From an uncultured Pelagibacteraceae bacterium (GTDB taxonomy: Bacteria > Pseudomonadota > Alphaproteobacteria > Pelagibacterales > Pelagibacteraceae): 54,981 nt of DNA. Below the pieces are notes generated by a model, which saw only the letters and a list, made by a program, of their open reading frames with translations, did no database searches and was not told the origin of the DNA. Below, one piece after another: positions 22,391 to 29,118 of this stretch (within the stretch, counting starts at the first letter, position 1; each line of letters opens with the position of its first letter). The translations under genes and the position numbers were made by a program. The stretch spans positions 1 to 54,981 of the forward strand of contig CACLKP010000003.1 of the NCBI GenBank assembly GCA_902607585.1, given 5' to 3'.

Positions 22391-23624
22391 GAGTGAACCC
22401 AGTACACTTAATCGTATTAAAAGATTATTAAAAGATCTTAAAAATCCAGAAAATAAAATCAGCAACTTAATACAAGTGGTGGGAACGAATTCTAAGCACT
22501 CTCTAATAGTTTCGATAAGAGAGATTTTTGAAACAGCTGGCTATACGTGTAATGTAAACATTAGCCCCTCTTTACGAAAATTTAATGAAAGATATTATTT
22601 TTCTGGAAAATATATTTCGGATGAGGATTTATACGACTTGCTCATAGAAGTTGAGCGGGTAAATAATAATAAAAGCATATCCTTTCATGAAATCATAACC
22701 GCGGCCTGGATATTACATGCTTCTCGCAAAGAAGCAGAAGTGAATATAATGGAAGCTGGCGCTTTATTCCGTCTAGATTCATCTAATGTTTTTAAAAAAA
22801 ATATTTGCTCTGTGGTTATGCCGATAGGTATTGACCATCTCGATTTTTTAAAAAAAGGAACTATAGATGAAATAGTCTACGAAAAATGTTCACATTTATT
22901 AAGTGATTCTAAAATCTTTGTTTCGGAACAAAAAAATAGTGTATTAGAAGAAATAAAAAAAAATATTGCCAATAATTCTTCTAAAAAATTTATCTTAGGT
23001 GAAGATTATAAGTATAAAAAAGATAATAATGGACTTATTTATGAAGATAAGTTGGGCAAGTTAAATTTACCTCTCCCCAACCTATTAGGTGATTTCCAAC
23101 TCGGCACGGTTACGACTGCGATTGCTGTTGCAAGAAATCTTAATCAATTTAAAATAAGTGAGTATCATATTAAGGAATCCATAATCAACATAAAATCTGA
23201 AGCAAGATTACAGAATATTACTCATGGAAAACTTAGAAAATATGTCTCTGAACGCAATCAAATTATACTGGATGGAGCGCATAACCCACTAGCTTTTTTA
23301 GCGATAAAAAAATATTTAGAAACCTTAAATAAGGAAAGGAAAGTATTTTTGGTACTTGCAATGATGTCAACAAAACAACATAAAGAATGTATTCAAATCC
23401 TTAAAGAAAAAATACATTCAATAACTACCCTAGACATTCCAAATCAAACAAAGTTTATTAAAAAAGAAGAATTATCAAAAATTGCTCAGTCTTGTGGTAT
23501 ACCTTCAAAAACAGAAAATTCCATTGAGGAAGCTTTTAAAAATATTGCTTCGGAAAACGATAATGCAATTATTCTATGTATTGGAAGTTTATATTTTGCT
23601 GCAGAGATATTAAATTTAAACTAA
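22344..23624 (+). CDS. folC: Folylpolyglutamate/dihydrofolate synthase-like Mur ligase family protein (divergent)
   Basis: LHPKSEPSTLNRIKRLL, VGTNSKHS (altered P-loop), GIDHLDFL, ILDGAHNPLA; syntenic with accD/trxA. Confidence 0.8.
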   Translation: MKIQKILKRLLQLHPKSEPSTLNRIKRLLKDLKNPENKISNLIQVVGTNSKHSLIVSIREIFETAGYTCNVNISPSLRKFNERYYFSGKYISDEDLYDLLIEVERVNNNKSISFHEIITAAWILHASRKEAEVNIMEAGALFRLDSSNVFKKNICSVVMPIGIDHLDFLKKGTIDEIVYEKCSHLLSDSKIFVSEQKNSVLEEIKKNIANNSSKKFILGEDYKYKKDNNGLIYEDKLGKLNLPLPNLLGDFQLGTVTTAIAVARNLNQFKISEYHIKESIINIKSEARLQNITHGKLRKYVSERNQIILDGAHNPLAFLAIKKYLETLNKERKVFLVLAMMSTKQHKECIQILKEKIHSITTLDIPNQTKFIKKEELSKIAQSCGIPSKTENSIEEAFKNIASENDNAIILCIGSLYFAAEILNLN

Positions 23625-23944
23625 ATATTCGAATTAATAAACTCTTGAACGTTCGATTTATTCGTTGCTCCGACCTTAGTATTTTTGACTTCACCGTTTT
23701 TATCAAACAAAATAATTGTGGGAACGCCACGGATACCAAACAAAGTTGGTGTTGAAGGTGAGCTGTCTATGTCCATATAAAAAAAATTTAATTTGTCTGA
23801 CATTTCATTTGAAATTTCTTCTATTATCGGCTTTAGTGTCCTGCATGGCGAACACCAGCTAGCAGAAAATTGAACCAAAGAATTTTTTCCAGATTCCTTT
23901 ACTAATTTTTTAAAGTTTTCATCGGTTAAATTTTGAAGTGCCAT
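23621..23944 (-). CDS. trxA: Thioredoxin
   Basis: FSASWCSPCRTLKPIIEEI, DIDSSPSTPTLFGIRGVPTIILF. Confidence 0.9.
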   Translation of the reverse strand: MALQNLTDENFKKLVKESGKNSLVQFSASWCSPCRTLKPIIEEISNEMSDKLNFFYMDIDSSPSTPTLFGIRGVPTIILFDKNGEVKNTKVGATNKSNVQEFINSNI

Positions 23945-24056: not shown

Positions 24057-24626
24057 CTAGCCTATTTTTTTTAATTTTCTGCTTATCATTTCTTCGCTTT
24101 TATTTTTAAGAACACTTATAACTAATTTCCGATTACATTTTACACCCATCTTTTCATAAACTTTTTTTGCGATTAACGTTTTGGTAAGACCATGTTCTTC
24201 TCGATATTGCCCTAGTTTTTCTTTTCGCTCCGTCTCAGTTTTAACTTTATCATTTAAATGTTTTGGTAGTTTGTCAACATCCGTTCCATTGTTAAAAATT
24301 TCGTTTATTAAAACTTTTTTCTTTTTAAGTATTTCTTTGCCATTAAAAGAATTATTACTATTATTCATTTTTTTTAGGATACTTTCCATTTTAGACTTTG
24401 TTGGTGGGTAAAAATAATGCGGGTTAGAACCAAACTGCATTCCTTTAGGTCTTTTTACTACGACAAATCTTATTTCATTGTTTTTAGCAAATCTGGTAAT
24501 ATTATCACCTTCGCTTCTAATTTTAATTTTATTACGACCTAAATAAGCAATTAAATCAGAACCATTTAACGTCCCTGAAGGCGCTTCTTCATAATCCCAG
24601 AGTAGTTCATGTTCTTTTTTTACCAT
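24057..24626 (-). CDS. Hypothetical protein, charged; possible C-terminal helix-turn-helix
   Basis: Intact 189 aa ORF in a same-strand run; YREEHGLTKTLIAKKVYEKMGVKCNRKLVISVLK resembles an HTH (weak). Confidence 0.6.
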   Translation of the reverse strand: MVKKEHELLWDYEEAPSGTLNGSDLIAYLGRNKIKIRSEGDNITRFAKNNEIRFVVVKRPKGMQFGSNPHYFYPPTKSKMESILKKMNNSNNSFNGKEILKKKKVLINEIFNNGTDVDKLPKHLNDKVKTETERKEKLGQYREEHGLTKTLIAKKVYEKMGVKCNRKLVISVLKNKSEEMISRKLKKIG

Positions 24627-24643
24627 GCTGCGTCCTATCTCTT

Positions 24644-24973
24644 TTACAGTTTATCAATTTTTCTCCCATAAAAAAAACTACTTTTTTTATTTAATTTTAA
24701 AGTCTCAATCTCATTTTTAAGAATCTCCATTTCTTTAATCGCCTTTTTATAATAATAATTTCTCTGAATTTTATCAAAAAATTTTAATATGTTTATTGGA
24801 AGGAAATAAAAAAAAATTATCATATAAAAAACTGGTTTTTCCCTAAATAGTTCAACTTCAACTCTTTTTCCAATTTCTATACAGTTTCTATATGTTTCTG
24901 CATTTCTTGCCCAATCTCTTAGATATGCTAATCTTTTATTCAAATAATCTTTATAGTAATATTTTTCTAGCAT
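24644..24973 (-). CDS. Hypothetical protein with one hydrophobic (probable TM) segment
   Basis: 109 aa, VFYMIIFFYFLPINILKFF; between the ExoI gene and the 189-aa gene. Confidence 0.55.
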   Translation of the reverse strand: MLEKYYYKDYLNKRLAYLRDWARNAETYRNCIEIGKRVEVELFREKPVFYMIIFFYFLPINILKFFDKIQRNYYYKKAIKEMEILKNEIETLKLNKKSSFFYGRKIDKL

Positions 24974-24979
24974 CTTTTT

Positions 24980-26413
24980 TTACGAGGCTTTTTCATAAAT
25001 TTTTCTTTGTTGATGTAAGTACTCATCTATTGCGTTTATATATTCAAGCTTTTCTTTGGAAATATTTTTTTCATTTCGCATATCATCACAAAGTTTTTCA
25101 CTCATTGGGATAGTTTGAAATCTATTCTCATCTACAGATAATATTTTTTTTGCAATATCTTCATGAATTGCTTTATATTCTTTTTTTAACAGTGCATCAG
25201 GTTGATTTTGGTAAATTAATCTTTTACCCAAATAATGAAATCTTTCATCATCAAATTGATCAACTATTTTATTTCTTTCAACCCAATCTGATGTTGTATG
25301 AAATGCTTCCATTTTCTTTTGGTCTTCTGGTTTTGCAAACCCACCTGCATAAAGTTGATTTTCAACTAAATTTTTTTCAGGTTTGTCAGCTGATTTTTCC
25401 TTTTTTTCCATCGCTAATTCACCTAAAATTTCACCCACATTTTTTCCGAATTCTTTGTGGGAGTGAATTAAGTTTGCCCGTTCTTTAATTTTTTCCCAAC
25501 CTAAAGCTTTATAATCCTCTCTTTCCATTCCGTAAGCATAATGAAGACAAACACTATTTTTATTTGATGGGAAAGGTCTACAGAATTTTCCAGGTTTTTT
25601 CAGAATTTCTTTTAGTGCATTTCTCGATAGATTTATTAAAGGCTTTGGATCATTCTCAAGCGCAAAAACTATTGGCCATTTATATTCACTATGAGTAGCA
25701 AATGCAGTGCAAATTGTAGGTCGCGATCTTCCATACCAATAAAAAACTGCAGTAAAGATTTTATTTTCTTCCAATGTTTTATTGGTTAATTCCTTGGTAG
25801 TTGTTTTTAAAATGGAATTATATATAGGATTTGCATTTTTTTGCATTTTTTTTAAAATCTCCCAAACCACCTTGCAGTCCCCTATACTTGTATGGAGCGA
25901 ATTTTTGTCTAAATTACTAATATTGCTCTCGGCTAGATCAGTAAGCTTGAAAGAAAAATTTCCTTTTTCATTTTTTTTAGCCTCAAAACTGTTCTGGTAA
26001 AACATCTTGCTTGCTCTCGCAAAAGGTAAAAAGTCAGCAGCCATGTTTTGATTTGTTTTTAAAACATAGACTGGAAGTAAAGAACGGTAATTTTCCTTTT
26101 CAATAAAAGGGAAGTCAAATGAGTGTCCATTCCAAGTTCCCCATACACAAGGAGACCATTTTTTTACTATTGCATGAAAATTGTACATCATTTCTAGGTG
26201 TGAGCTGTTCGCTTTCTGCATTTGATGAAATCCCTTATTCACCCACATGCTGTATGGATCTGGAATATGACCTGGTTTGTTACGACAGAAAAAATTAAAC
26301 TCATCTAATTTTTCAAGTTCTGGTGAAAGTAAAATTCCTCCAATCGAAAATATCACTCCTGTACTTGTAGATGAATTTATACTTTCAGTATCTATTAAAG
26401 CTATGTTTTGCAT
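24980..26413 (-). CDS. Exodeoxyribonuclease I (SbcB)-like DEDDh exonuclease
   Basis: IALIDTES (Exo I), WGTWNGHSFDFPFI (Exo II), SFKLTDLAESN...LHTSIGD (Exo III); C-terminal ENQLYAGGFAKPEDQKKMEAF...DDERFHYLGKRLIYQNQP matches the ExoI C-terminal domain. Confidence 0.8.
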   Translation of the reverse strand: MQNIALIDTESINSSTSTGVIFSIGGILLSPELEKLDEFNFFCRNKPGHIPDPYSMWVNKGFHQMQKANSSHLEMMYNFHAIVKKWSPCVWGTWNGHSFDFPFIEKENYRSLLPVYVLKTNQNMAADFLPFARASKMFYQNSFEAKKNEKGNFSFKLTDLAESNISNLDKNSLHTSIGDCKVVWEILKKMQKNANPIYNSILKTTTKELTNKTLEENKIFTAVFYWYGRSRPTICTAFATHSEYKWPIVFALENDPKPLINLSRNALKEILKKPGKFCRPFPSNKNSVCLHYAYGMEREDYKALGWEKIKERANLIHSHKEFGKNVGEILGELAMEKKEKSADKPEKNLVENQLYAGGFAKPEDQKKMEAFHTTSDWVERNKIVDQFDDERFHYLGKRLIYQNQPDALLKKEYKAIHEDIAKKILSVDENRFQTIPMSEKLCDDMRNEKNISKEKLEYINAIDEYLHQQRKIYEKAS

Positions 26414-26435
26414 TTATTAAATAATCCTTTAACTG

Positions 26436-27386
26436 TTAATCTTTGAATTCAAGCAAATTTTGTGAAAAGGCCCCCTCTACAGACGAAAATTGTTCTATCA
26501 TTTTTATAAAATATTCACGTTTTTTTTCTATATTTTTTTCTCTTTTTTTGACTGATTTTTTTTGATCAGCAATGTCATCTTCTAATTGAGCTTTTTCTTC
26601 TTTCATAGATTTTACTAAATTGTTAAAATTTATAGTAAATTTGTCACTAGTGAAAATTTCCCACAATTTTTGTTGATTCTTATCTTTGTTTTTAGAAATA
26701 TTTTTTGCTCTTGAAGCTGTTATTGCGATTAGTCTAATTAATTCAGAAACAATGTCCAAAGTCTTATTAAATTTACAAATTATTATTTTATTTTTTTCCC
26801 TAAATTCCATTTCACCTTTAAAATTTTTTGGAACATTTTCTGTAGCAATTATTCCTAAACCTATATTTTCTATTTCCATGTCTTTTAATAGTTTTGAAAT
26901 AAATGTCGAAGAAAAATTTTCAGTTCTTTTACTTTCCCATAAAACTTTTCCGTAAGACTTCCCATTTTCTATAATCTCATGAATGCAATCAGCCCCTTTC
27001 TTTCCTTTTGCAATAGAGGTAATTTTGTCTAAGGGAAATCTATTTTTAAGGTAATTTTCTAAAACTATCTCTTGCACCTCTCCGTCCAGTTCTGGAGAGC
27101 CTTGATTGATTGGCTTGGTAAGTTTTTTAACATGTTCTTCTACTTTAATACTTCTATCTTCCATTCTTTTTGTTTTTTCCCGTTCTGTTGCAATTTCTCT
27201 AGCATGATCAAATTTTACTTCGTTCATGGCTTCTTCTTTCAATTGTTTTTTTAATTCAGGACTGATTTTTGGAGGAGCGAGGTTTTGAGCTCTCTTCTTA
27301 GCCTCTGTTTCAATAACCCCGCTCAAATCTACTTCATGCTCAAATACATTCTTACATCTCTTGCATGTTACTTTTACTTTTACCAT
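26436..27386 (-). CDS. DUF2130-family protein, predicted PD-(D/E)XK-like nuclease with coiled coil
   Basis: CKRCKNVFEHEV zinc-like start, coiled coil, KKGADCIHEI...GKVLWESKRTENFSSTFISKLLKDM (D...ExK), IIATENVPKNF, C-terminal coiled coil. Confidence 0.75.
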   Translation of the reverse strand: MVKVKVTCKRCKNVFEHEVDLSGVIETEAKKRAQNLAPPKISPELKKQLKEEAMNEVKFDHAREIATEREKTKRMEDRSIKVEEHVKKLTKPINQGSPELDGEVQEIVLENYLKNRFPLDKITSIAKGKKGADCIHEIIENGKSYGKVLWESKRTENFSSTFISKLLKDMEIENIGLGIIATENVPKNFKGEMEFREKNKIIICKFNKTLDIVSELIRLIAITASRAKNISKNKDKNQQKLWEIFTSDKFTINFNNLVKSMKEEKAQLEDDIADQKKSVKKREKNIEKKREYFIKMIEQFSSVEGAFSQNLLEFKD

Positions 27387-27387
27387 T

Positions 27388-27792
27388 TTAATGAACGGTG
27401 TCCGTCTCCTTCTTTTTTTCAAGCCCAAGCTCAGGAAATTCCTCAACTATCATATCGGCATGATTTTTATTTATTTCCTTTGTTGTTGTGCTGTCAGCAA
27501 TTTTAAATTCGGGATAACTGCAGCCAAAAACAGTAGCTTGCTTGATATGAAAAAGTATAAAATAATAAAAAAAACCAGGAGACATTCGAAGCTGTTTTAA
27601 ATATTCAGCTGTCTCTTTTGCAAGATCTCTAGCGTACTGGTTGACTTTATCTTTTTCTAGTTCTTCGAAATCTACAGGATTAGCTGTTCTGCTAACTACC
27701 TGTAATTCTCTTGTTAATTTAAGAGGAACAACATTGCTTTTATTATGTTTTTTTATTCCTTTTTTTACTTTCTTACTCTTTACTTCAGACAT
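27388..27792 (-). CDS. Hypothetical protein, first gene of the island operon
   Basis: 134 aa ORF with basic N-terminus, immediately upstream of the DUF2130 gene and downstream of a good promoter. Confidence 0.6.
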   Translation of the reverse strand: MSEVKSKKVKKGIKKHNKSNVVPLKLTRELQVVSRTANPVDFEELEKDKVNQYARDLAKETAEYLKQLRMSPGFFYYFILFHIKQATVFGCSYPEFKIADSTTTKEINKNHADMIVEEFPELGLEKKKETDTVH

Positions 27793-27895: not shown

Positions 27896-27925
27896 AACAT
27901 AGCATAAAATATATATGTTTGTCAA
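27896..27925 (-). promoter_or_regulatory. Putative sigma70 promoter of the island operon
   Basis: Minus strand TTGACA - 18 nt - TATGTT, about 100 nt upstream of the 27792 start. Confidence 0.6.
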
Positions 27926-27932
27926 GAAAAAA

Positions 27933-29087
27933 TTAATTATCTTTTTTTTGATTTCTCATTCGTTCCAGCATACTTATAATTTCGTCTATAATTTTTTCCT
28001 GAAAAGAAAAAATTTCATTAAAATAAAATTCATACGTTGTATGTTTTTCTGGGTTTAATTTTAACTCGCATACAATTTTTCCACTTTTTAAAGAATTATT
28101 CTTTACATAAATTAAAATCAAAAATTCATCTGAATCTTCAAGATCCATCCATTTGATAAAAACTTCACCAGTTTCCATGGAATGATCTATAATTTTAAGA
28201 GGACTCATGTTTTTGCCTAAATGGTCGCGGTTTATTATAAATGCTGCCGTTCTTAAACTTCTTGTGTATGGAAGCATAACATTTTCCCTTTTGGTTTTTT
28301 CAAAAATTAGTTCTTTTTCAACTTCAAGCAACTTTGCTTTATCTTCATCGCCTGTCAGCTGAGCTCCAAGTTCGGATAACCTGTTTCTCATTTTTTCAAC
28401 TTTCAAATTATTGTAGCGTTCTTTGATCGCTTGAATTTTTTCTACAATAGGTTGATAGTCTTCTTTTAGATTTTGTAAGGCATATTTTTCAAGTTGTTGC
28501 TGTTCTCGCTGTGATCTCAATTCATATTTCTCGAGGATCTTTTCTAAACGTAAATTCATTAACATTTTTTTGTGTTGTTCTGCTTTTTCTTTTCTTGCCT
28601 CTCTTTCAGCTTGACGTAAATATAATTGCAACTCTACTTTGGTCTCTTTAGCAAATTGAATCTGATCTTTTATTTGCTGTTCTTTTTGTTCTTTAATGAT
28701 TCTAGCCCTTTCTTTTTTTTCCCTTTCTTTTTCCCTTATTCTCTCATTTTCCGCTTGTATTTTTTTTTGTATTTGAGCTGATTTGTATGAATCATATGCT
28801 TTAAACAAAGGATAAAGAGCAGCATTTATTAATTTGCTGGTTAACTGACCCAGGCTTTTTCTAATACTAAAATCTTTTCTTTTTTTGATTTTTATTTTAG
28901 GTATTCTAATTTTGGGCAATTTTATTGCTTTAAGTCTGTCTAGGGGTTGCTTTTTTTTCTTGGTTTTCTTGGTTTTTTTGGCTCTTTTTTTACTAATTCT
29001 TCTCTTAAAAATATTTCTTCTAACTTTTTTCCTAGATCTAAGTTTTTTTGTTTTTTTTTTTAATTTTTTCTTGGATTTTTTTTTCAT
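27933..29087 (-). CDS. Lysine/arginine-rich coiled-coil protein of unknown function
   Basis: N-terminus MKKKSKKKLKKKTKKLRSRKKVRRN..., long charged coiled coil (IQAENERIREKEREKKERARIIKEQ), globular C-terminal part; Met choice uncertain (29087 or 29105). Confidence 0.65.
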   Translation of the reverse strand: MKKKSKKKLKKKTKKLRSRKKVRRNIFKRRISKKRAKKTKKTKKKKQPLDRLKAIKLPKIRIPKIKIKKRKDFSIRKSLGQLTSKLINAALYPLFKAYDSYKSAQIQKKIQAENERIREKEREKKERARIIKEQKEQQIKDQIQFAKETKVELQLYLRQAEREARKEKAEQHKKMLMNLRLEKILEKYELRSQREQQQLEKYALQNLKEDYQPIVEKIQAIKERYNNLKVEKMRNRLSELGAQLTGDEDKAKLLEVEKELIFEKTKRENVMLPYTRSLRTAAFIINRDHLGKNMSPLKIIDHSMETGEVFIKWMDLEDSDEFLILIYVKNNSLKSGKIVCELKLNPEKHTTYEFYFNEIFSFQEKIIDEIISMLERMRNQKKDN

Positions 29088-29118
29088 GAAATATTTTAGT
29101 GTCAATCATACCAAAATA

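Follow-up and report, generated by a model that had tools for sequence, protein, structure and literature searches.

An alternative sbcB allele carrying DUF2130 where rmuC is usually found: a candidate site of repeated nuclease-module exchange in SAR11

We analyzed a stretch of 54,981 nucleotides ("the window"), which is the part of contig CACLKP010000003.1 from positions 1 to 54,981, derived from an uncultured Pelagibacteraceae bacterium (assembly GCA_902607585.1) whose genome is 55% complete. A scan of named genomes placed its relatives in the Pelagibacteraceae, i.e. SAR11, which are highly abundant bacteria of the ocean. The minus strand carries a cassette of five open reading frames (ORFs) between positions 27,792 and 24,057, which read in the order c12, DUF2130, sbcB, c13, c51 and are separated by only 1, 22, 6 and 17 bp (Table 1). 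An earlier reading made without database searches, referred to below as the sequence-only reading, had described them as two nuclease-like proteins and three orphan proteins in an accessory site, suggestive of a DNA-repair module or an anti-phage system. The close spacing of five genes on one strand was verified. For the DUF2130 gene, the ATG at 27386, 1 nt past the c12 stop codon, was preferred as start over the upstream TTG at 27446 used in the original ORF call.

Profile searches with all five proteins identified the two nuclease-like ones. The sbcB product is matched over its full length as exonuclease I (ExoI): by PF08411 (E=7.6e-11, above the cut-off), by the NCBIfam exodeoxyribonuclease I profile NF008746 (2.3e-19) and by the PADLOC profile RTasSbcB (1.4e-43). 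Like known ExoI enzymes it has a DEDDh core, in which all five catalytic residues (D8, E10, D100, H174 and D179) are present in the aligned motif columns, and the ExoI C-terminal domain. It differs from them in its score of 69 bits, which lies under the NCBIfam equivalog cut-off of 260 bits, and in its linkage to DUF2130, c12, c13 and c51. The second protein is a member of the DUF2130 family, as it reached 100.2 bits with PF09903, compared with a curated cut-off of 26.7. It begins with a CxxC motif, contains coiled coils and has the invariant core residues E106, D133, E151 and K153 (316-aa numbering). The AlphaFold model predicts an alpha-beta-beta-beta-alpha-beta core as in PD-(D/E)XK nucleases, and the D...(D/E)xK residues are located on this core, which places the protein in the PD-(D/E)XK superfamily. 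In the PDB, the top fold matches were restriction-type nucleases, and EcoT38I, BamHI, DdmD and Cap4 were matched with weak E values of 0.01-0.03. Hence, a full-length DEDDh nuclease and a DUF2130 protein with Cys-pair start, coiled coils and nuclease-like core had both been recognized correctly from the letters. No function is assigned to DUF2130 in the open-licence papers that we found.

To place the cassette, we compared it with the corresponding locus of other SAR11 genomes. SbcB was detected in 345 of 396 genomes of the family and in 136 of the 140 near-complete ones, almost always as a single copy. The SbcB of the window is therefore a core gene of the family and not an accessory extra, and the idea of an accessory site was only half right. 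RmuC, identified by PF02646, has a similar distribution (329/396 and 134/140, respectively). The usual SAR11 order is trpB-trpA-accD-folC, followed by a thioredoxin gene (trx), sbcB and rmuC. Four congeners (L090, L091, L092 and L126) have trx-sbcB-rmuC-c14, and in a fifth (L125) a PD-(D/E)XK gene separates sbcB from rmuC. The window reads trx-[c51-c13-sbcB'-DUF2130-c12]-c14-cfa-dapA. DNA homology with the congeners reaches trx on one side and resumes at c14 or farther on the other, depending on the congener, and tblastn located the RmuC proteins of the congeners nowhere in the window. Relative to the congeners, the pair is thus precisely replaced. As judged from sequence and synteny, the cassette represents a different allele of the sbcB-rmuC locus conserved in SAR11, and takes the place of the usual pair between the same flanking genes.

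The SbcB protein itself shows how distant this allele is. It shares 46-51% identity with the SbcBs of other genera and 30-34% with those of its own genus; tblastn gave ~32% for the congener protein. In SbcB trees, most plain trx-sbcB-rmuC loci from many genera form one clade, and the alleles with accessory genes fall mostly outside of it. SbcB proteins of genus g1 occupy three separate places. Sampling for these trees was deliberately enriched for DUF2130 loci and close SbcB loci, so that the proportions seen there do not reflect frequencies. Similar swaps are found in many SAR11 lineages, as expected if a DNA-processing or anti-virus module is under strong selection. A foreign base composition of the cassette was considered and rejected, as its GC content (29.8%) is not distinctive compared with the window (31.3%). 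At one locus (L067 in G114, also L141), two overlapping ORFs of 251 and 290 aa stand for SbcB, probably because of a frameshift.

The DUF2130 family is rare in SAR11, as it was found in 22 of the 396 Pelagibacteraceae genomes. In 15 of the 22 the gene is located at the sbcB locus: in 12 cases rmuC is missing there, in three both genes are present. RmuC was undetected genome-wide in 11 of the 12 genomes with DUF2130 in the place of rmuC, compared with its presence in 329/396 overall (Fisher p = 1.6e-8; the test ignores relatedness). When DUF2130 stands alone beside sbcB, the two families are thus nearly mutually exclusive. Mapping on the SbcB tree requires at least 7 changes for the substitution of RmuC by DUF2130. 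Of note, this linkage is no general rule, a possibility that was rejected because SbcB was next to DUF2130 at none of 11 DUF2130 loci from other Alphaproteobacteria. The co-occurrence of DUF2130 and SbcB, which the sequence-only reading had proposed to check, was seen within SAR11, and there mostly not in defence islands.

DUF2130 and RmuC both have coiled coils, a PD-(D/E)XK core and the same place beside sbcB. The profiles of DUF2130 and RmuC (PF02646, COG1322) align over a shared 'G...E ... D ... (D/E)xK' core, a marginal similarity (hhalign E=4e-4, probability 35%). They differ at the N-terminus: a strongly hydrophobic stretch is present in 57/57 RmuC copies, N-terminal in the top examples and consistent with a membrane helix, whereas hydropathy analysis detected no hydrophobic helix in the DUF2130 proteins of SAR11 loci, which start with CxxC. 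As DUF2130 lacks both a PF02646 match and the N-terminal hydrophobic helix, it may work like RmuC, yet we do not class it as RmuC.

The three small proteins had no convincing match in Pfam, PHROGs, NCBIfam or PADLOC, in agreement with their description as orphans. By sequence comparison they are nevertheless genuine families, each of which recurs at sbcB-rmuC loci. The c12 family was detected in 22/198 genomes, and every locus read places it inside sbcB, rmuC or DUF2130 clusters. Five further genomes (L064-L067 and L070) show the arrangement c12-(RHH)-DUF2130-SbcB-c13, and in several of them genes overlap. The C-terminal residue of c12 is His in 35 of 39 listed rows, some of which duplicate loci, and Asn or Gln in the other four. 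Conservation of this His despite low overall identity might indicate a docking tail. The protein is predicted to be helical, in a low-confidence model (pLDDT 61) that gave no fold match. Profile searches against the PDB yielded nothing usable for c12, for c13 or for two accessory families. At two loci, large leucine-rich-repeat-like proteins of 694 and 1429 aa are encoded between c12 and DUF2130 (L056:8949-11033 and L060:3421-7710). The c13 family (Table 1) is found mostly close to SbcB or DUF2130, at times elsewhere; the transmembrane segment proposed for this protein corresponds to one borderline hydrophobic stretch (Kyte-Doolittle 1.94). Members of the c51 family have 153-198 aa and share the C-terminal motif ...KTxIAxKVxxxxGVxCNRKLVxxVL. 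They recur adjoining RmuC or DUF2130, or with helicase-nuclease proteins (L056, L198-L200, L202, L206 and L208), the larger proteins in these loci being fusions of PD-(D/E)XK, DEDD exonuclease and SF1 helicase domains.

Table 1. Features of the cassette and its flanks in the window.
Feature	Position	Strand	Characteristics	Basis
c12	27388..27792	-	134 aa; Lys-rich N-terminus; C-terminus ...ETDTVH	alignments and loci
DUF2130 protein	26436..27386	-	316 aa from ATG; predicted PD-(D/E)XK core	PF09903 1.5e-28
SbcB/ExoI-like DEDDh 3'-5' exonuclease (by sequence)	24980..26413	-	477 aa; putative alternative allele	profiles, motif columns, tree
c13	24644..24973	-	109 aa; single hydrophobic stretch VFYMIIFFYFLPINILKFF; family in 28/198 genomes	hydropathy
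c51	24057..24626	-	189 aa; recurrent family	37-42% identity
promoter-like TTGACA-N18-TATGTT, TG preceding -10	27896..27925	-		promoter scan
thioredoxin gene (trx)	23621..23944	-	conserved left flank of exchanged interval	synteny; 50-52% identity to congeners
c14, Lys-rich coiled-coil protein	27933..29105	-	conserved right flank in genus	59% identity to congener L126; synteny c14-cfa-dapA

The promoter proposed upstream of c12 is indeed present and belongs to the top-scoring class of the promoter scan. Such sites are not clearly more frequent in this AT-rich region than in shuffled sequences (29 versus 20.5 +/- 5.3), and the promoter therefore provides weak evidence. The c14 gene is kept beside the locus in several genera and its product has no Pfam family.

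Further alleles and related loci were seen elsewhere. At the divergent alternative sbcB loci L198, L199, L200, L202, L208 and L212, SbcB is encoded beside a protein of 380-494 aa, possibly an S24-type regulator; the S24-peptidase match is sub-threshold and was obtained with one member. Some of these loci also encode a protein of ~530 aa with the motifs ILQNxRD, GxxGEG and HELxHA. These motifs were read by eye, with no Pfam match above the cut-off, and suggest a GHKL ATPase-metallopeptidase. Helicase-nuclease fusions occur among these divergent loci close to c51, c12 and RmuC. At two loci away from sbcB (L072:5059-7919 and L142:6220-9053), c13 and DUF2130 flank a Cas4-like protein with a DEDD exonuclease domain (DUF2779); by sequence, the logic of DUF2130 beside a DEDD exonuclease is repeated here with a different enzyme. 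Outside SAR11, ExoI-like genes of Rhizobium and Pseudosulfitobacter plasmids (L224, L225 and L226) are part of a triad of helix-turn-helix (HTH), ImmA/IrrE and exonuclease genes. The triads adjoin PD-(D/E)XK/ThiF/multiubiquitin or SLATT-nucleotidyltransferase genes and may be a separate defence-associated ExoI unit.

Next, the position of the locus relative to known variable regions was assessed. In G026, a complete genome of 1,308,759 bp that we take, judging by this length, to be HTCC1062, sbcB-PDK25-rmuC is located near 470 kb beside the trp genes. The segment G026:C1:461001-481000 (L218) reads trx-sbcB-PD(D/E)XK-rmuC, followed by genes sized like hisG/hisS of L058, and an additional PD-(D/E)XK gene is found between sbcB and rmuC in the HTCC1062 genus. 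Four hypervariable regions (HVRs) of SAR11 were named in 2007 and given as HTCC1062 gene numbers, and the HVR3 gene list of Wilhelm et al. includes a 'possible exonuclease' and a 'recb-like' gene (PMC2217521). Identity of the locus with HVR3 was rejected, as genes near 470 kb in G026 would not have the numbers 1162-1173. Provided that G026 is HTCC1062, the swap locus is outside HVR1-4 of this genome.

The cassette was also compared with known systems. Shield employs ShdA, a membrane-associated nuclease with RmuC domain, together with accessory genes in phage defence of Pseudomonas, the genus in which it is known (PMC10270631). That paper makes no mention of SbcB or DUF2130, and the cassette contains no RmuC domain and gave no Shield match in PADLOC. 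Families of both SbcB and RmuC are listed in PADLOC as proteins associated with reverse transcriptases (RTs), and ExoI neutralises the toxic product of DRT9 in E. coli (PMC12483538). A reading as a defence reverse transcriptase (DRT) system, which would call for an RT of UG/Abi type, was based on the RTasSbcB match and rejected, since a search for RVT_1 found no RT in the 55%-complete genome of the window. The role of RmuC in inversions (see below), Shield and DRT9/ExoI are analogous cases, and we regard them as precedents rather than tests.

Our best reading is a hotspot of allelic exchange, at which a DNA-processing module of two nucleases is swapped and DUF2130 takes the part of RmuC. The gene content, the replacement relative to the congeners, the co-conservation and the near mutual exclusion were observed directly. 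To the explanation as a whole, in which the usual sbcB-rmuC pair was exchanged for a distant sbcB, DUF2130 instead of rmuC and three accessory genes that together would form a nuclease module, we assign a probability of roughly 0.6. DUF2130 would do the job of RmuC beside ExoI: as a coiled-coil PD-(D/E)XK nuclease it would cut or nick aberrant or incoming DNA such as branched DNA, hairpins or phage replication intermediates, and ExoI would digest the 3' single strands thereby exposed. Unlike RmuC, DUF2130 has no membrane helix, and the hydrophobic c13 may tether the complex to the membrane. An adaptor or an inhibitory brake docking via its C-terminal tail is conceivable for c12, and c51 may bind DNA as a regulator. 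Recombination within the flanking genes is the probable route by which the cassette moves. Phage pressure would be the likeliest driver of repeated swapping, either because the module attacks phage DNA or because phages inhibit the resident nucleases.

Several observations weigh against this explanation. One genome with DUF2130 in the place of rmuC (G189) has RmuC at the end of another contig, and both genes coexist in three of 15 loci (L056, L060 and L061), i.e. substitution is not absolute. The homology signal between RmuC and DUF2130 is weak. Many genomes are incomplete, among them the source of the window, and absence of RmuC may thus reflect missing sequence; at the locus itself, the rmuC gap is seen directly. 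The proposed function of the cassette derives from sequence and context, its neighbours in most genomes are hisG/hisS, cfa and dapA and not a classical defence island, and its sole good PADLOC match is the RT-associated SbcB, with no RT found.

The repeated swapping suggests a defence role, as do, by analogy, the defence systems with RmuC domains found elsewhere. Phage-driven selection would produce repeated exchange at one locus; the same could come from recombination by itself or from a control of DNA uptake. An anti-phage system proper, in which DUF2130 and SbcB would jointly degrade phage DNA while c12, c13 and c51 sense or regulate, is plausible on these grounds, albeit short of probable. 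The allelic turnover across genera would fit, as would the PD-(D/E)XK/DEDD/SF1 helicase fusions of alternative alleles with some PADLOC similarity (mostly in the helicase part), the sub-threshold S24 match of one neighbouring protein, the PADLOC entries for RT-associated SbcB and RmuC, the RmuC domain of Shield (PMC10270631), and the alphaproteobacterial plasmid ExoI-like genes with HTH-ImmA/IrrE beside defence-like genes. However, ExoI is core and single-copy and, in contrast to most defence genes, is exchanged and not gained in addition, the neighbours are mostly housekeeping genes, and the evidence is drawn from sequence. Moreover, IMG/VR viral contigs contained no DUF2130 or SbcB match, for which reason a phage origin was rejected as well. 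In GenBank phages, c51 had no match and DUF2130 only a distant Helicobacter-prophage relative. The contig scan for DUF2130 relatives used a 9-sequence subset of the DUF2130 alignment.

We consider it unlikely that an ordinary repair and recombination locus, whose nuclease pair limits inverted-repeat recombination and processes 3' ends, is exchanged merely through the high recombination of SAR11 without a phage driver. RmuC of E. coli does limit inversions at short inverted repeats (PMC1189080), and both the core status of SbcB and the housekeeping flanks would agree with such a role, but this would leave unexplained why one locus repeatedly exchanges cassettes that are as divergent as ~30% identity, bring new accessory families and have a partner that is not orthologous. 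Quite improbable, in our view, is a gatekeeper that controls the fate of single-stranded DNA incoming by transformation or conjugation: SbcB affects natural transformation of Vibrio cholerae (PMC11784430) and ShdA lowers transformation efficiency (PMC10270631), but no competence gene was seen at the locus. Finally, chance clustering or an assembly artefact, conceivable because the contig comes from a genome that is 55% complete, has a negligible chance of being correct and is refuted by the same gene order in independent assemblies from several genera, including the Pelagibacteraceae isolate contigs AG-333-F04, AG-435-M21 and AG-916-G03. The two-nuclease module of the sequence-only reading was a fair guess, and the lack of co-conservation outside this genome that would have refuted it was not observed. 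It has to be amended in that ExoI is the core exonuclease, DUF2130 stands in for RmuC and the cassette is an alternative allele.

Taken together, the enzyme families are already known, whereas three things appear to be new: the interchangeable RmuC/DUF2130 partner at the locus of a core exonuclease, the families of accessory proteins and the hotspot of swapping. None of the three was found in the open-licence literature. In a wider and more tentative view, for which the odds are less than even, the sbcB locus could be an undescribed hotspot at which innate immune modules are swapped throughout the SAR11 family. Each exchange would involve the core exonuclease ExoI, its coiled-coil PD-(D/E)XK partner (RmuC, DUF2130 or the two together) and small adaptor proteins, and a housekeeping nuclease would at the same time serve as the effector in an anti-phage system of a new type. 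RmuC and DUF2130, two poorly understood families, gain a shared context as interchangeable partners of ExoI, and a streamlined lineage gains a swap hotspot beyond the four hypervariable regions of 2007 (PMC2217521). The reading predicts that DUF2130 takes over the function of RmuC in vivo, and that phenotypes in phage infection or DNA uptake vary between the alleles.

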